A stretch of 64,000 nucleotides of DNA. Source: a virus. A model generated the notes under the pieces. It searched no databases. It was not told the DNA's origin and worked only from the letters and a program-made list of their open reading frames with translations. Below are positions 608 through 23,577 of the stretch, piece after piece; position 1 is the first letter of the stretch; each line of letters starts with the position of its first letter. The position numbers and the translations under genes are program-made. Location: the IMG/VR virus record IMGVR_UViG_3300045972_000140, positions 1 to 64,000 of that record. The stretch is one strand, 5' to 3'.

Positions 608-627
608 AATGGGGCCGAAGCCCCATT
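608..627 (-). terminator. hairpin with UUCG tetraloop, likely end of the tmRNA transcript
   Basis: Perfect 8-bp stem AATGGGGC/GCCCCATT with loop TTCG as read on the minus strand. It lies between the tmRNA tag frame and the promoter of the next gene. The following bases CTCTTGAT are only weakly U-rich, so it could be a processing or stability hairpin rather than a strong terminator. Confidence 0.5.
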
Positions 628-629
628 GG

Positions 630-945
630 TTGTTTCTTTTACAAGGTAAGTCCTACCTCGTTGTGGCCCTTAGGCTACAAGTGCGAACTTTTCGTCTGCG
701 TTTACTTATTTTCTTCTTTTTACATCGTTGCTGATGTGCTGTCTACTTATGTACTTTTTGCGGAGTCGATCCTGTGTCATCCCCATTAGTAAGAACTTTA
801 GGTGTATTGAGATGTCATTAAAAAGAGGAGATCTCCGGGATACCAAACCTGATCACTTAAGATTCAAAAATTCTTACTGGTGGAGATGCCGGGCACTGCC
901 CCCGGGTGTTCCACTCATTTCTATTTGCTTCATACAGCAATAACT
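630..945 (-). ncRNA. ssrA: circularly permuted two-piece tmRNA
   Basis: Read on the minus strand, the acceptor piece comes first. A T-arm-like hairpin CCGGG-GGCAGTG-CCCGG is followed by CATCTCC-A-CCA (CCA at 880-878). After a 93-base spacer, the 5' tRNA-like end GGGGATGACACAGGATCGAC starts at 784. GGGGATG pairs with CATCTCC over seven base pairs, including a G3-U70 wobble (the alanine identity signal), with A73. The spacer ends carry AGTAAGAA and TTCTTACT, which extend the acceptor helix in the precursor and would be removed by processing. A tag frame at 705-670 reads (V)NADEKFALVA then TAA; the exact resume codon is uncertain. ACATC/GATGT upstream of the tag can form a small helix. Known tmRNA rescues stalled ribosomes and tags the product for proteolysis; this gene order is that of alpha-type permuted tmRNA genes. 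The outer boundaries are approximate. Confidence 0.85.
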
Positions 946-977
946 TCTACTGTAACACTATTTAGTGTCTATGTCAA

Positions 978-3974: not shown

Positions 3975-5078
3975 ATGAACAAAGATTACAGATGCACTTT
4001 GCCATTTACGGGACTTACCCGATTACATCTTCACTTAAAAGAAGTAGTGCCTTGCTGTAAAATAAAGTCGTGGAAATATGACGATGAATTACTAACAGAA
4101 AAACACATTGCACTTCGACAAGATATTATAGACAATGTAAAAAGCCCGCTTTGCAAATCCTGTTGGGACATAGAAGACGAAGGTGGATATTCGTATAGAC
4201 AACGTAGATCAGAGCACTTTGCCACTGGATGGAATATTACAGATGCAACTGCACCTATTACAAAAATAGAGGTAAAGTTTTCAAATAAATGTCAGTTGAT
4301 GTGTATGTATTGTGGGCCGGATAATTCTACAATGTGGGAAACCGCACATACAATGAAATATCCAATTACTGCCGGATATTACACATCGCACAGCATAAAG
4401 ATAGAAGATGCCGTAGACGTTTCTAAATTAACAGAAGTACGAGTAACTGGTGGCGAACCTATGTTAGAAGAACAGTGTATTGATTTTTTACTGAAATTAC
4501 CGTATAACAAAGATAGAAAATTATCTATAATTACTAACTTATCATACGGTGATACAACAATAAATGAATTATTAAAAATCACAAAGTTGCATCCTAATAT
4601 AGATGTATTATGTAGTTTAGATGCAATAGGCGAAAACATAACTAGACGATTCCTAAATTGGAAACTTTGGGAAAGAAACTATTATTCGTTACTTGACGAT
4701 TTACAACTTCGTAGGAAAGAAAATCCTACCGCAACTGTACAAATATTAGTGACAGTTAATATACTAAATTATAAGAATTTACAGGAAATTATTAATTATC
4801 ACATAAACAATATTAAGAACGGATATCAGGGTATTCACTTTGTTCTTAACTATGTTAGTTTGGATGAAAAATTATCTATTAAGTCCAAGGAAGTTGATCG
4901 AGGATATAAAATAGTAATATCAGAAGACGATAGTGCCCTGCTATCGAAAATAGAAAGAAATATGATAGAATCGATGAATAGTCTACTAGATACTATTACT
5001 GTAGATAAAGAGTTAGAACAACAAACTGAGAATTTTTTAAAAGAATATAATGACTATACGCCCAATAAAAATACATAA
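3975..5078 (+). CDS. radical SAM enzyme, first gene of the plus-strand block
   Basis: 367 residues. The cluster motif CQLMCMYC is at residues 106-113 and GGEPM follows at about residue 157. Before the core there are CTLPF, PCCKI and LCKSCW cysteines, the same extra N-terminal cysteine layout as the minus-strand protein at 1906-3225; the two are probably distant paralogues. The last 29 bases overlap the start of the next gene, so translation is probably coupled. It belongs to a run of four radical SAM genes ending in a glycosyltransferase-like gene. A peptide or glycan modification is plausible, but no precursor peptide is visible. Confidence 0.85.
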   Translation: MNKDYRCTLPFTGLTRLHLHLKEVVPCCKIKSWKYDDELLTEKHIALRQDIIDNVKSPLCKSCWDIEDEGGYSYRQRRSEHFATGWNITDATAPITKIEVKFSNKCQLMCMYCGPDNSTMWETAHTMKYPITAGYYTSHSIKIEDAVDVSKLTEVRVTGGEPMLEEQCIDFLLKLPYNKDRKLSIITNLSYGDTTINELLKITKLHPNIDVLCSLDAIGENITRRFLNWKLWERNYYSLLDDLQLRRKENPTATVQILVTVNILNYKNLQEIINYHINNIKNGYQGIHFVLNYVSLDEKLSIKSKEVDRGYKIVISEDDSALLSKIERNMIESMNSLLDTITVDKELEQQTENFLKEYNDYTPNKNT

Positions 5079-6039
5079 AACAAAAGAACAGAATTCAAGA
5101 CTGATTGAATGGAAATTAGGTAATACATGTAATTACGATTGTTCCTTTTGTGATATCAGTAATAAAGCAAGAGACCAACCTTGGTTAGATATCGACGTAT
5201 GTAAACATGTATGTACAAAATTAATGGCACAAGCAGATAGTGCTGGGAAGAAAATATTTTTTCAATTTACTGGAGGAGAGCCGACATTATATCCTAACTT
5301 CTTAGAACTTTGCAAATTCGTATCAGACAATGGACATTTTGTTAAAGTATTAACAAACGGAAGTAGGACAATGCGCTGGTGGGAAGAAATAGCAGAAGCC
5401 AACGTGCTTAATACATTATATCTAACTATACACACCGAACAAAATCCAGATATAGATCATTTAATTAAATTAATAAAACTGTTCGAAAAGAAACCTGTAT
5501 TTGTATTAGCCCAGTCTACGGCACCTGTAAATATATTCAATGAAGCATATGCTGCACATAAAAAAATTCTCGAGAGCACAGCGGTATGTGCAAGTTTAAA
5601 ACCTATCAATACTGGGCACAAACATCTTTCATTTATAGACAAATATACAGATGAACAGTTGGAAATATTAAAAGCTAATGGATTAATTAAAAGTGAAAAC
5701 TATCGAGGTACAAAAGCAGAACCAACAAATTGGCACGGCTCGGACTTGGAAGTAACATATTCGGATAATTCTACTAGTGTAATGTCTGCCCATAGAATTT
5801 TGACAACTAAACAAAATACCTATCAAGGATGGGATTGTTCTGTCGGAATGGATTATTTAACAATTATACACGACAAAGCATATCGTGGTATATGTAGGCA
5901 GGGCGGATCTATTTGGTCAATTTATGACGACAACATAGGATTCATGATGGAGCCTATTAATTGCAAAAGCGAAAGATGTACATGCCTTGCTGACCTAAGC
6001 GAAAACAAAATAGATCCAACATTTAAAAATAATGTATAA
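5050..6039 (+). CDS. radical SAM enzyme, second gene of the block
   Basis: 329 residues. The motif CNYDCSFC lies near the N-terminus (residues 27-34) and FTGGEPTLYPNF follows, as in compact radical SAM cores. C-terminal cysteines (MDYLTIIHDKAYRGICRQGG and CKSERCTC) could hold an auxiliary cluster. The start overlaps the previous gene by 29 bases and the end overlaps the next by 8. Substrate unknown. Confidence 0.85.
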   Translation: MTIRPIKIHKTKEQNSRLIEWKLGNTCNYDCSFCDISNKARDQPWLDIDVCKHVCTKLMAQADSAGKKIFFQFTGGEPTLYPNFLELCKFVSDNGHFVKVLTNGSRTMRWWEEIAEANVLNTLYLTIHTEQNPDIDHLIKLIKLFEKKPVFVLAQSTAPVNIFNEAYAAHKKILESTAVCASLKPINTGHKHLSFIDKYTDEQLEILKANGLIKSENYRGTKAEPTNWHGSDLEVTYSDNSTSVMSAHRILTTKQNTYQGWDCSVGMDYLTIIHDKAYRGICRQGGSIWSIYDDNIGFMMEPINCKSERCTCLADLSENKIDPTFKNNV

Positions 6040-7090
6040 GCTAGAGAATATAAAACAAGTACACCTAGAAATGACAGAGCGGTGTCAAGCCGCTTGCCCT
6101 ATGTGTCCTCGTATGAATTCGAAAGGAGAAGTTAATCCACGATTAACAATGAGCGAATTATCGTTTGACGATTTTGTAAAGATATTTCCTCCCGACTTTA
6201 TAAAACAATTAGATAAACTAAACATGTGTGGCAACTTCGGTGACCCTGCTGCTGCCAAAGACACATTAGAAGTATTTAGATATATTAGATTACATAATCC
6301 AACTATGGTACTTGAAATGTTTACTAACGGTGGGCTCAGGCATACCGAGTGGTGGATTGAATTGGCGCACATCCTAGGTAAAAATGGTAGGGTTATTTTT
6401 AGTGTAGATGGGTTAGAAGATACTAATCACATATACAGAAAAAATGTTAATTGGGGTATTCTAAGAAATAATATTGTGGCGTTTATAAATGCAGGTGGTA
6501 GGGCAGTTTGGGAATTTCTTATCTTTGCACACAATCAACATCAATTAGAAGAAGCAAGGGCATTAAGTAAAGAATTAGGATTTATTAGTATAGTGTTTAA
6601 AAAAAGTTCAAGATTTCACATCGACCTAAATACTGTTCGTACAGCAATAGTAAAACACAAAGGAGTTACTACCGAAATAACTGCACCTACCCAGGAATAT
6701 CAAAATATAGTTTCAACCAAGCAAACTCCTATACTTCAAAAATATGGGTCCGATAATGAGTTTTGTAATAAGACTGCTATATCATGTAAAGCAATAACCC
6801 GTAGTGGCATTTTTATCTCAGCAGAAGGATTAATGATGCCTTGTTGCTGGCTTGGCGGAGCAATGTATTGGAATGTTAAAGAAGAAAACGAGATATGGAA
6901 ACTAATAGATCAAATAGGTGGAAAAGATAAATTAGATGCAAGGAACGGACTAGCTACTGTTTTTAATTCAGGTATATTAGAACTTATACAAGATAGTTGG
7001 AATAAATCAAGTGTGGCAGACGGAAGGTTGCTTACCTGTATTAGAACATGTAGTTCAGAATTTGACCCAATAGGCTCACAATATGTATAA
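6032..7090 (+). CDS. radical SAM/SPASM-like enzyme, third gene (paralogue of the fourth)
   Basis: 352 residues. The motif CQAACPMC is at residues 18-25. The C-terminal half has a SPASM-like cysteine set: ISCKAI, then LMMPCCWLGG, then CIRTCS. The gene is closely similar to its downstream neighbour at both protein and DNA level (shared MYK-ENIKQVHLE start and shared NPRLTMSEL and GDPAAAKDTLEVF blocks), so it arose by tandem duplication. SPASM enzymes typically modify peptides or proteins; here the target is unknown. Confidence 0.85.
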   Translation: MYKLENIKQVHLEMTERCQAACPMCPRMNSKGEVNPRLTMSELSFDDFVKIFPPDFIKQLDKLNMCGNFGDPAAAKDTLEVFRYIRLHNPTMVLEMFTNGGLRHTEWWIELAHILGKNGRVIFSVDGLEDTNHIYRKNVNWGILRNNIVAFINAGGRAVWEFLIFAHNQHQLEEARALSKELGFISIVFKKSSRFHIDLNTVRTAIVKHKGVTTEITAPTQEYQNIVSTKQTPILQKYGSDNEFCNKTAISCKAITRSGIFISAEGLMMPCCWLGGAMYWNVKEENEIWKLIDQIGGKDKLDARNGLATVFNSGILELIQDSWNKSSVADGRLLTCIRTCSSEFDPIGSQYV

Positions 7091-8165
7091 AATAGAAAAT
7101 ATAAAACAAGTGCACCTAGAGATAACTGAGAAGTGCCAAGCAGGATGTGCAATGTGTGGAAGAACATGGGGAGCGGGTAACGTTAATCCAAGATTAACAA
7201 TGAGCGAATTATCATTAGAAGATTGTAAAACTATATTCCCTGTCGAATTTGTGAAACAACTGCACCATATATTTTTATGTGGTACGTTTGGTGATCCTGC
7301 TGCTGCTAAAGATACACTTGAAGTTTTTAAGTATTTTAGAGAATGCAACCCCGACTTAATACTAACAATGCATACAAATGGCGGGCTCAGGAATACAGCA
7401 TGGTGGACTGAATTGGCCCAAGTTTTGAGTAATCGTGGAAGTAAGGTAGTTTTTAGTGTAGACGGATTACAAGATACTAATCACATATATAGACAAAATG
7501 TTAATTGGGATATAGTCGAAAGTAATATGAGAACGTTTATAAGTGCAGGTGGCAATGCGGTATGGGAATATCTTATTTTTCAACATAATCAACATCAAAT
7601 TGAAGAGGCAAGGGCGCTAAGTGAAGAAATAGGATTTAAGAACATATTGTTTAAGAAAAGTGCAAGATTCTCGGGCAACTTGGATTCATTGAAATCAGAT
7701 GTGACGTTTAAAACTAGGAGAGGAGAATCGGTGATATTAGCAGAACCCGATTCTCCTCATCAAAATATTGAAAAAACAAAACAAGCATCTGTGCTAACAC
7801 AATATGGAACAAGCGAAAACTATTACAACACTACACCAATATCATGTAAAGCAATAAACGAGTCATCGATCTACATAACAGCGGAAGGATTATTTTTGCC
7901 GTGTTGTTGGCTAGCAGGACCTATGTATAATTGGTCAGACGATAATATAGATTATAAACAAAACGATGTTTGGAAACTAATAGACAAAGTAGGTGGAAAG
8001 AGTAAGCTCGATGCAAGGAAAGGACTAACTAATGTTTTTAATTCAGGTATATTGGAAATGATAGAAAAAGGATGGAGTACAGATCGCGAACACGGCAGAA
8101 TATTTCGATGTGCACAAGTATGCGGCATAGGATATTCACCATATAGTGTAGAAATAACAAAATGA
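7083..8165 (+). CDS. radical SAM/SPASM-like enzyme, fourth gene (tandem duplicate)
   Basis: 360 residues. The motif CQAGCAMC is at residues 18-25. C-terminal cysteines in ISCKAI, LFLPCCWLAG and FRCAQVCG repeat the neighbour's auxiliary-cluster pattern, so both copies appear functional. It overlaps the previous gene by 8 bases and the next by 4, as expected for a tightly coupled operon. The copies have diverged most between about residues 195 and 240, perhaps reflecting different substrates. Confidence 0.85.
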   Translation: MYKIENIKQVHLEITEKCQAGCAMCGRTWGAGNVNPRLTMSELSLEDCKTIFPVEFVKQLHHIFLCGTFGDPAAAKDTLEVFKYFRECNPDLILTMHTNGGLRNTAWWTELAQVLSNRGSKVVFSVDGLQDTNHIYRQNVNWDIVESNMRTFISAGGNAVWEYLIFQHNQHQIEEARALSEEIGFKNILFKKSARFSGNLDSLKSDVTFKTRRGESVILAEPDSPHQNIEKTKQASVLTQYGTSENYYNTTPISCKAINESSIYITAEGLFLPCCWLAGPMYNWSDDNIDYKQNDVWKLIDKVGGKSKLDARKGLTNVFNSGILEMIEKGWSTDREHGRIFRCAQVCGIGYSPYSVEITK

Positions 8166-9082
8166 TTTTTGATTTAACAACTTACGATGTAGTTTTTATT
8201 AGTTACGACGAACCAAATGCAGAACAAAATTGGGAAGATTTAATAACAAAAGTACCAAAGGCAAAGCGAGTGCACGGTGTGAAAGGGCTTGCTACTGCTC
8301 ACCGCACTGCAGGTAGGTTATCGACCACTGATAAGACAATAACAATAGACGGTGATAATAGATTATTCAAAGACCTTACTAACAAGTCTTTTGAAATAAA
8401 TGACGAATGCGACTTTAAAGAAATACTATTGAACTGGCCAAGTAAAAATATTATAAACGGGCTAGAATACGGCAATGGCGGTATTAAATTATGGCCAACT
8501 CATATATTAGCAAATTGCAGTACAGACGAGTTTGCAATAAAAGGGACCCCGCAGCAAGTAGATTACAGCTACGGTTTAAAAAATCAAATTACATTCCATG
8601 AGTGTTATTCGTATATCTATCCAAATGCTAGTCCGTTACAGGCATGGCGTGCTGGTTTCAGAGAAGGGGTTAAATTAGGGCTAAAGCGTGGAGTAAAAAT
8701 TGATGACTTGGCAGACTACTGGCCGGGCGGACGCAAGCGGTTATCATTATGGATGACTGTGGGCGCCGATGTAGAAAATGGTATATGGTCAATATTAGGT
8801 GCGAGACAAGGTTGTTACCTAACTCAATTTACAGACTGGGATATGTCTAACAACGGTGATTTTGATTATCTCAACAATTATTTCCAAAATAATGTTGCAA
8901 TTCTGTCTGAAGAAGAAGCGTTAATAGAATGTGTTAAGCTAGGCAAGATAATAGGTCACAAATTTGAAATTTGTGACCCATTTACTGCCGAACAAAGTAA
9001 GTTTGTAAAAAACATGAACCCTGATCCGGATGCACAAGAGCGGTCAGGTTGGCATTGGGTTTCTAAACCACAGTGGGATTAG
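8162..9082 (+). CDS. glycosyltransferase-like protein (GT-A/DxD type)
   Basis: 306 residues. The N-terminus YDVVFISYDEPNAEQNWEDL is followed by KRVHGVKG and an IDGDN acidic motif (D63, D65) of the kind that binds a metal and nucleotide sugar in GT-A glycosyltransferases. The family occurs in many marine and freshwater phages with unproven function. It closes the plus-strand radical SAM operon with a 4-base overlap, so its product probably acts in the same pathway. Its end overlaps by four bases, tail to tail, the minus-strand sulfotransferase-like gene. Confidence 0.6.
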   Translation: MIFDLTTYDVVFISYDEPNAEQNWEDLITKVPKAKRVHGVKGLATAHRTAGRLSTTDKTITIDGDNRLFKDLTNKSFEINDECDFKEILLNWPSKNIINGLEYGNGGIKLWPTHILANCSTDEFAIKGTPQQVDYSYGLKNQITFHECYSYIYPNASPLQAWRAGFREGVKLGLKRGVKIDDLADYWPGGRKRLSLWMTVGADVENGIWSILGARQGCYLTQFTDWDMSNNGDFDYLNNYFQNNVAILSEEEALIECVKLGKIIGHKFEICDPFTAEQSKFVKNMNPDPDAQERSGWHWVSKPQWD

Positions 9083-14245: not shown

Positions 14246-15703
14246 TTAAAAGATACTTACACCTGTTAGCTCACTAAATCTGTAAGCGTCTTCCCAGGTA
14301 TTTACTAATGGCTCACCTCGCACATTTAAACTTGTATTCATTAGAATCGGGCAACCACTTGCATTGTGCCAGGCCTCCAGTAAGAGTCTAAATTGAGAAT
14401 TTGTAGTAGATGTTACTGTTTGTACTCTGCTACTGTTGTCAATATGACATATACCGGGAAGTTCATTAGGATATAAACATTGTGAAACATATTGCATGTA
14501 AGGAGAAGTAGACACCGGTATATCGAAATAACTGTGTGCGTATTCTTCAAGGATTGCTGGCGCAAATGGCCTAAATTGTTCTCTGTGCTTAACTGTATTC
14601 ATTAAGGCCTTTGCATTCGGGCCGCGTGGGTCGCACAATAGACTCCTGTTACCGAATGCCCTTGGTCCAAATTCTGCTCGCCCATTTGCAACTGCAACAA
14701 TCTCCCCGTTTTTTAATTTTTTAACGATCGAATCTATATCTAAAGTACGCTCAATGTTTGTACCTAAAAACGGAGTATCCCATGTTAAGTAAGAATTTGT
14801 ATATGCTGCTACTGCGCCAATTGCACTACCGGAATCACCGGGATTCGGCATTATCCAAATATTTTTAAATATATTTTCTCTTGCGATGATGCTGTTTGCA
14901 ACACAGTTGAGAGCAATTCCTCCCATTAATACTAAATTATCGCTGTTACAAATAGTTTTCATCCATTTGATGGTGTGTAATAAATAATCCTCAACAATTG
15001 ATTGTACGCTTGCTGCAATATCGTACTTACTAAAGTTTGCATTTGACGGCACCCACCAGTTGCAACCCTTATGCATATTAAACTTTAATTCAAAGTCGGG
15101 TGCTGATATATGCTGAAAGAATGTGTCTAATATTTCATTTTTATATATCGGTTGTCCGTATGCAGCCATCCCCATTAGGATGTATTCTTCTTCGTTTGGT
15201 TTCAAACCTAAATATGCTGTCATTGCAGAATAAAACAATCCAATACTATTTGGATATTTCTTTGTCCATATTTTTGATAGCACTGTATCTTTTGCAGACC
15301 AAATACTAACAGTGTCCCATTCCCCGATTGCATCAACTACTAATATTGCAGCATCACGAAATCCACTTGTAAAATATCCGCCTGCGGCATGACTACAGTG
15401 ATGACCTGTAAAGTGTACAGGCAAGTGATTCAATTTGAATTTCTTTAACTCGTTTCTATGTGTAGCAAACGTAATGGGCTGTCTTGCATATAGTTGTCGC
15501 GTGTTCTTTAATAGTGGTTGTTCAAACCAAACAACTTCAGTCGGAGATCCATACTGTTGCATATCGTTAATAATGTGTTGATTCAATACACTATCATTCT
15601 TAATACGGCTGTACCGCTCACTATGCGCGGCCCAAACTATTTTATCTCCATCAATTAATGCAAGACTTGCATCATGGTTGTTCGATGTAATACCTAATAT
15701 CAT
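14246..15703 (-). CDS. carbamoyltransferase (NodU/CmcH/TobZ family)
   Basis: 485 residues. The N-terminal kinase-like domain starts MILGITSNNHDASLALIDGD, with HHCSHAAGGYF carrying the conserved histidines and GGIALNCVANS. The C-terminal half has the carbamoyl-phosphate-handling signature RAEFGPRAFGNRSLLCDPR and EQFRPFAPAIL. It is somewhat shorter than the 550-600 residues of characterised members but ends at a natural stop. The family carbamoylates hydroxyls of sugars or antibiotics; some phage members act in modification pathways. It is divergent from the SGNH-like gene at 15854, with which it may form a pair. Stop six bases from tRNA-Cys. Confidence 0.9.
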   Translation of the reverse strand: MILGITSNNHDASLALIDGDKIVWAAHSERYSRIKNDSVLNQHIINDMQQYGSPTEVVWFEQPLLKNTRQLYARQPITFATHRNELKKFKLNHLPVHFTGHHCSHAAGGYFTSGFRDAAILVVDAIGEWDTVSIWSAKDTVLSKIWTKKYPNSIGLFYSAMTAYLGLKPNEEEYILMGMAAYGQPIYKNEILDTFFQHISAPDFELKFNMHKGCNWWVPSNANFSKYDIAASVQSIVEDYLLHTIKWMKTICNSDNLVLMGGIALNCVANSIIARENIFKNIWIMPNPGDSGSAIGAVAAYTNSYLTWDTPFLGTNIERTLDIDSIVKKLKNGEIVAVANGRAEFGPRAFGNRSLLCDPRGPNAKALMNTVKHREQFRPFAPAILEEYAHSYFDIPVSTSPYMQYVSQCLYPNELPGICHIDNSSRVQTVTSTTNSQFRLLLEAWHNASGCPILMNTSLNVRGEPLVNTWEDAYRFSELTGVSIF

Positions 15704-21608: not shown

Positions 21609-21683
21609 TGGAGTCGCGTACGGGGATCGAACCCGTCTGGTCAGCGTGAAAGGCTGAAGACCTCACCAAAAGTCAAACGCGAC
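21609..21683 (-). tRNA. tRNA-Glu(UUC), copy 2
   Basis: Acceptor GTCGCGT/ACGCGAC, anticodon arm TCAGC-CTTTCAC-GCTGA, T-loop TTCGATC, encoded CCA, U73. Confidence 0.9.
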
Positions 21684-23489: not shown

Positions 23490-23577
23490 TGGTGGGTACT
23501 ATAGGATTCGAACCTATTCAGGCATAAGCCAACAGTTTTACAGACTGTCACGCACTCTCCAACTTGGTCGCGTACCC
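23490..23577 (-). tRNA. tRNA-Tyr(GUA), copy 2
   Basis: Class II. Acceptor GGGTACG/AGTACCC, anticodon arm ACAGT-CTGTAAA-ACTGT, A73, encoded CCA. Tandem with copy 1; first intact tRNA of the array in the direction of transcription. Confidence 0.92.

Follow-up and report, generated by a model that had tools for sequence, protein, structure and literature searches.

A probable hybrid tmRNA gene in a phage record

Up to now, the gene for phage transfer-messenger RNA (tmRNA) has been viewed as an intact loan from a host, and the permuted tmRNA lineages of the Alpha- and Betaproteobacteria (alpha and beta in the following) have been taken as separate in origin. The tmRNA locus close to one end of the IMG/VR virus record IMGVR_UViG_3300045972_000140 raises the question whether the parts of a single phage gene can have different sources. 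The DNA analyzed, referred to as the window, comprises 64,000 nucleotides (nt) and represents the first 64 kb of this 126,686-bp record. It carries a complete permuted two-piece tmRNA gene on the minus strand (around 942-608), together with promoter-like and hairpin sequences. The unusual point, which was overlooked in a preliminary description of the locus, is that this gene draws its tRNA-like core and its mRNA-like domain from different tmRNA lineages. Judged from the sequence comparisons given below, the gene is probably a functional phage ssrA of the permuted type and a hybrid, with an alphaproteobacterial-type tRNA-like core in the betaproteobacterial-type scaffold of T4-like phages.

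The identification as a phage-encoded, circularly permuted two-piece tmRNA, which had already been proposed, was fully supported. In an Rfam search of both strands of the window, the models RF04321 (tmRNA_permuted; 90.3 bits against a gathering threshold of 47, E-value 4.7e-16) and RF01849 (alpha_tmRNA; 71.9 bits against 50) were matched above threshold, and RF01850 (beta_tmRNA) reached 68.9 bits under sensitive settings, which is below its threshold of 84. ARAGORN did not call the gene at default settings and did so only at a lowered threshold, again with the tag ADEKFALVA. The predicted fold of the transcript (942-604) was better than that of 100 out of 100 dinucleotide shuffles (z-score -2.63).

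Separate affinities of core and flank

Since under sensitive settings the match of the window to the beta model was only slightly poorer than that to the alpha model, the core (47 nt; T-arm, acceptor helix and D-loop) and the mRNA-like flank (150 nt) were scored separately against 87 alpha-type and 16 beta-type permuted tmRNAs of bacteria. The core matched a bacterial alpha gene at 44 of 47 positions and the best beta gene at 32, with scores of 38.2 and 20.2, respectively (difference +18.0); in none of the 16 bacterial betas did this difference exceed -9.6. The flank behaved in the opposite way. Its beta score was 35.1 (shuffles 13.4 +/- 1.6, largest 21.4), whereas its alpha score of 18.8 lay within the noise (shuffles 15.2 +/- 1.4, largest 19.3). 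The resulting difference of -16.3 compares with values of +4.4 or more for all 87 bacterial alphas, and the combination of an alpha core and a beta flank occurred in none of the 87 alpha and 16 beta genes.

The tree of the flank placed the betas and the hybrids on one side of a branch with 100/100 support. With a larger set of genes, comprising among others those of jumbo phages and alpha-type genes of phages, a grouping of the flank with the alphas was rejected by the approximately unbiased (AU) test (p-AU 0.011). Upstream of the core, the nearest sequences to the acceptor piece were found in another hybrid (L378, see below), Stenotrophomonas phage Yut2 and the jumbo relatives G003 and G002. 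The pre-tag motif AGTAAACGCA was considered as a diagnostic for the beta type and rejected, since many alpha-type phage tmRNAs have it as well.

Recurrence and covariation

The first 20 nt of the mature 5' end (765..784) were searched as an exact sequence and were found in 6 viral contigs, whereas 84,980 genomes of bacteria and archaea gave no match. Four further distinct hybrid genes of phages were recovered, three from the contigs with the 20-mer and one via a pattern for the hybrid junction, which makes five with that of the window; L300 was left out of the gene comparison. The core and flank differences were +18.0 and -9.5 for L377 (= L378, the latter in a 158-kb contig), +18.0 and -24.3 for L373, +14.4 and -17.9 for L375, and +16.1 and -22.6 for L379 (= L380; L379 in a 239-kb contig). 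The L378/L377 sister gene was assembled from two other metagenomes in an identical arrangement. L373 and L379 share an almost identical beta stretch, GTCAGGCGATCGACGTTAA.GAAGCAAA. Furthermore, the spacer of the window gene (877-785) and that of L379 have the stretch CAGGTTTGGTATCCC..AGATC.CCTCTT in common (score 30.5; highest score among the shuffles, 22.5), which is what a joint transfer of core and spacer would lead one to expect. A database search for the L378 and L379 hybrids among isolate phages gave no match, and a short pattern for a bacterial hybrid yielded only scattered, chance-like matches in 399 Pseudomonadota genomes.

Across the five hybrids, pairing in the acceptor, P2 and T helices was complete (85/85 cells) and both partners had changed in 7 of the pairs, although this sample is small and the count leans towards the proposed helices, from which the composite alignment was built. 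The covariation score was reached in 0/500 shuffles, and sliding the structure destroyed the signal. The G3-U70 pair was present in 17/17 phage genes across 8 different acceptor helices; in 9 of these the search pattern itself had fixed the acceptor, so that the informative cases are the seven found by the covariance model. The covarying helices and the fixed G3-U70 point to selection for charging and two-piece assembly.

Origin of the hybrid

Several observations weigh against the reading as a functional hybrid ssrA gene. The references represent a sample of the bacterial genes, and the combination may also exist in a lineage of bacteria. When the bacterial references were used without phage relatives, a grouping of the hybrid flank with the alphas was not rejected (AU p 0.26), despite the branch at 100/100. 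The core comprises only 47 nt and its trees were weakly resolved: the test was run twice, first without alpha phages and then with bacterial references only, and in the latter a grouping of the hybrids with the betas was not rejected (p-AU 0.17). The flanks of some phage genes with an alpha core (L019 and L024) were too diverged to classify. The further hybrids were found via parts of the window core or the hybrid junction, and therefore say nothing on the frequency of the form. Finally, no SmpB gene was found in the 126.7-kb record.

Could the core have become alpha-like in place? Phage Yut2 has the GGGGATG/CATCTCC acceptor together with a beta T-loop and D-loop, and agrees with the window in 35 of 47 core bases; about a dozen point mutations, acquired in adaptation to an alphaproteobacterial SmpB, would thus suffice to give a beta-type phage tmRNA the alpha-type T-loop and D-loop without recombination. 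We consider such convergence unlikely, because the 44/47 identity to a bacterial alpha core includes positions without evident constraint and because the homologous spacers of the window gene and L379 point to a cassette that travels with its spacer. The gene could also be an ordinary permuted tmRNA, taken whole from one bacterial lineage (an alphaproteobacterial host or a relative), of which the mRNA-like domain merely diverged. The RF01849 match above threshold fits this, as does the fact that permuted alpha tmRNAs are common in phages. The flank scores (within the noise for the 87 alphas, far beyond it for the betas), the position of the hybrids with the betas in the flank tree and the beta stretch shared by L373 and L379 nevertheless make it quite improbable. 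It has been reported that the tag-less RNA of phage DS6A is an inhibitor of host tmRNA (cited in PMC11915505), and the window gene might likewise be a decoy or be decayed and inactive in trans-translation: its bit score is lower than that of many bacterial genes, the tag is unusual in lacking an AND start, and the fragment is without SmpB. Given the complete tag frame with stop codon, the perfect acceptor with G3-U70 and the perfect covariation in related phage genes, there is very little to recommend this. Fusion of two tmRNA genes by assembly or binning is hardly credible, even for a gene located 0.6-0.9 kb from the end of a metagenomic contig, as L378/L377 shows the same arrangement in two other metagenomes and three other distinct hybrids exist.

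The permuted order keeps T-arm, acceptor and D-loop in one stretch of ~140 bp, so that the whole core could be swapped by one recombination. The likely advantage would be that the RNA suits an alphaproteobacterial host with regard to SmpB, synthetase and the enzymes of tRNA modification, while the phage retains its own mRNA-like domain and tag. In a wider and admittedly speculative sense, the permuted order in phages might make the tRNA-like core a transferable cassette, swapped by phages between lineages so as to suit the SmpB met with in a new class of hosts, and a connection between the alpha and beta lineages of permuted tmRNA might have come about through such hybrids. A recurrent hybrid with breakpoints at the core edges would show that both tmRNA domains are exchangeable in nature, would make it testable whether the core must match the SmpB of the host, and would offer one route for permuted tmRNA between distant bacterial groups. 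It is also a caution about whole-gene trees of phage tmRNA, which can give a misleading picture, for example where host switches are deduced from them.

Organization of the gene and predicted maturation

The gene order is permuted: the 3' half of the acceptor is encoded upstream of the 5' half. All elements described here lie on the minus strand. A promoter-like TTGACA-N17-TACAGT sequence (949..977; 10/12 matches) is found right after the stop codon of the upstream epimerase gene; as about the same number of sites at 10/12 matches is expected by chance, it is supportive only. The 5' part of the acceptor piece (TTATTGCTGTATGAAG..AGAAA, 906..942) belongs to the phage scaffold and contains the 3' strand of P2 (914-910). 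It is followed by the T-arm CCGGG-GGCAGTG-CCCGG with an alphaproteobacterial T-loop (889..905) and by the acceptor 3' strand CATCTCC, discriminator A and encoded CCA (878..888, CCA at 880-878). Beyond a spacer of 93 nt (785..877), which would be removed on maturation, the mature 5' end GGGGATGACACAGGATCGAC (765..784) provides the acceptor 5' strand GGGGATG, including G3 of the G3-U70 pair, and the D-loop ACACAGGATCGAC. The acceptor strands (784-778 and 888-882) form 7/7 pairs, G3-U70 among them. The CCA-ended piece preceding the 5' tRNA-like end, the 7-bp helix with G3-U70 and the 5' signature were all noted before and are all present. The extension of the acceptor helix into the spacer is real as well, although its length is 12 consecutive pairs, including G-U (AGTAAGAATTTT with AAAGTTCTTACT), rather than the 8 bp reported; it was reached in 0/200 shuffles. 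Most other long-spacer phage tmRNA genes showed a comparable extension, which is thus a property of the class and not peculiar to the window. Together, T-arm, acceptor strands, spacer and D-loop constitute the 141-bp cassette of alpha type (765..905) that would have been exchanged.

The P2 5' strand (764-760) and the pre-tag region (700..764), of beta type, precede the tag frame, for which the previously given ending ADEKFALVA-stop was recovered at 699-670: the frame runs from the resume codon GCA to GCC (699-673), followed by the stop codon TAA (672-670). As suggested earlier, the RNA might serve to rescue ribosomes that mRNA decay has stalled, or the tag might be a phage-specific degron; its end -ALVA is close to the ordinary -LAA degron. 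The post-tag region (628..669), likewise of beta type, contains the hairpin ACGAGGTA..TACCTTGT. Then follows an 8-pair hairpin with a TTCG loop (608..627), a probable terminator with a weak T tail on the minus strand, as indicated by the fold and by its alignment to the terminator of the beta model; the terminator scan listed this hairpin on the plus strand only.

The single precursor transcript would be cut at 878 and 784 by tRNA-processing enzymes of the host, to give an acceptor piece of ~65 nt and a second piece of ~160 nt that would be held together by the acceptor helix and P2. By analogy with known tmRNA biology, alanyl-tRNA synthetase would charge the RNA via G3-U70, SmpB would take it to stalled ribosomes and ADEKFALVA would be appended to the nascent chain. 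A host copy of SmpB is expected to serve trans-translation.

Relation to known phage tmRNAs

Permuted two-piece tmRNA in phages is as such already known, and the hybrid alpha/beta form appears to be new. The earlier remark that a permuted form is unusual in a phage was overstated, considering that a 2022 survey of phage genomes gives 53 two-piece tmRNAs (PMC9004378) and that one of our IMG/VR pattern scans gave 16 contigs with a permuted tmRNA, and others dozens more. Of 27 records that were either related or served as reference, 7 also had a permuted tmRNA above threshold; one of the seven is that of Sinorhizobium phage Phosso, which lacks a tmRNA annotation at that place. Our literature search, which covered few subscription papers, yielded nothing on mosaic tmRNA, and the accessible part of PMC9004378 does not mention it. 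That part describes the tmRNA of the T4-like OM43 phage Melnitz, like that of the window a two-piece form, as alphaproteobacterial and accompanied by a glutamine riboswitch; in contrast, no riboswitch family of Rfam was found in the window. The window gene shares the gene order, G3-U70 acceptor, CCA, D-loop and tag frame with the families RF04321, RF01849 and RF01850. It has the T-loop and D-loop of alpha_tmRNA but not its mRNA-like domain, and the mRNA-like domain of beta_tmRNA but a score below the threshold of that model.

The Stenotrophomonas phages (Menderavirus, e.g. the cultured, T4-like Yut2, PV130723) have the scaffold type and acceptor of the window gene, but their tmRNA is beta in both core and flank. 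With this scaffold type around a beta core, Yut2 resembles what may be the parental form of the hybrids. The jumbo relatives G001 (369 kb) and G002 (385 kb) from IMG/VR, with a capsid protein 97% identical, also have a permuted tmRNA like that of the window. Their cores are not clearly alpha and have the standard TTCGAAT T-loop and, unlike the window record, both phages encode a complete SmpB (passing the NCBIfam equivalog cut-offs). In G001 (L139 5281-6047; IMGVR_UViG_3300045971_000577, 261280-262046) the SmpB gene lies directly upstream of the beta-type permuted tmRNA and ends ~125 bp from it, an apparent two-gene ribosome-rescue unit as far as gene order suggests. In G002 it is located ~14 kb from the tmRNA amid tRNA genes; a GOLLD RNA (RF02032, 212 bits; L149 5866-6284) occurs near the tRNA cluster of this phage. 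The standard one-piece tmRNA model had no match above threshold in the jumbo relatives. Phage-encoded rescue parts, as here, are also on record for huge phages at large, in the form of tmRNA and SmpB (PMC7162821); the accessible text does not state the gene form, adjacency or a hybrid structure. No SmpB was found in six records with a hybrid or the same core.

The tmRNA of G003 (L142; 160517-160908) has a 208-nt spacer that holds a 64-codon open frame, preceded by a purine-rich stretch and ending at the mature 5' end. A similar frame starts in the L378 spacer and runs on into the tmRNA. The phage of the sister tmRNA has a tRNA with a CTA anticodon (L387 15210-15285, L377 2315-2390; tRNA-Pyl according to ARAGORN), which is a possible amber suppressor.

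Phage and genome setting

The record contains T4-type genes for the major head protein, portal, late sigma factor, SbcCD and baseplate hub, and at least 29 tRNAs. Its head protein is 78% identical to that of Pseudomonas phage PA5oct and 95-98% identical to that of many IMG/VR contigs, including ones of 363-385 kb; on the basis of these identities, the record is best classified as part of the genome of a T4-like jumbo phage, with PA5oct as a relative. The use of host tmRNA as a prophage attachment site was considered and found unsupported: no integrase model was matched among the Pfam-scanned neighbours, and the head, portal and late sigma genes are of T4 type.

At the contig edge (1-560 of the window) the N-terminal four-helix ligand-binding domain of a methyl-accepting chemotaxis protein (PF12729) is encoded, which is unusual in a phage record. 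Two clusters (3975-9082 of the window, and L004, record positions 104001-124000) comprise several radical SAM proteins and companions, and G447, the 158-kb record with a hybrid tmRNA, encodes homologues of several of the cluster proteins. A gene for a Nol-like carbamoyltransferase (phrog_1601) is situated amid tRNAs at 14246-15703, and tRNA-like matches above the Rfam threshold at 21612-21683 and 23493-23577 are absent from the ARAGORN list.
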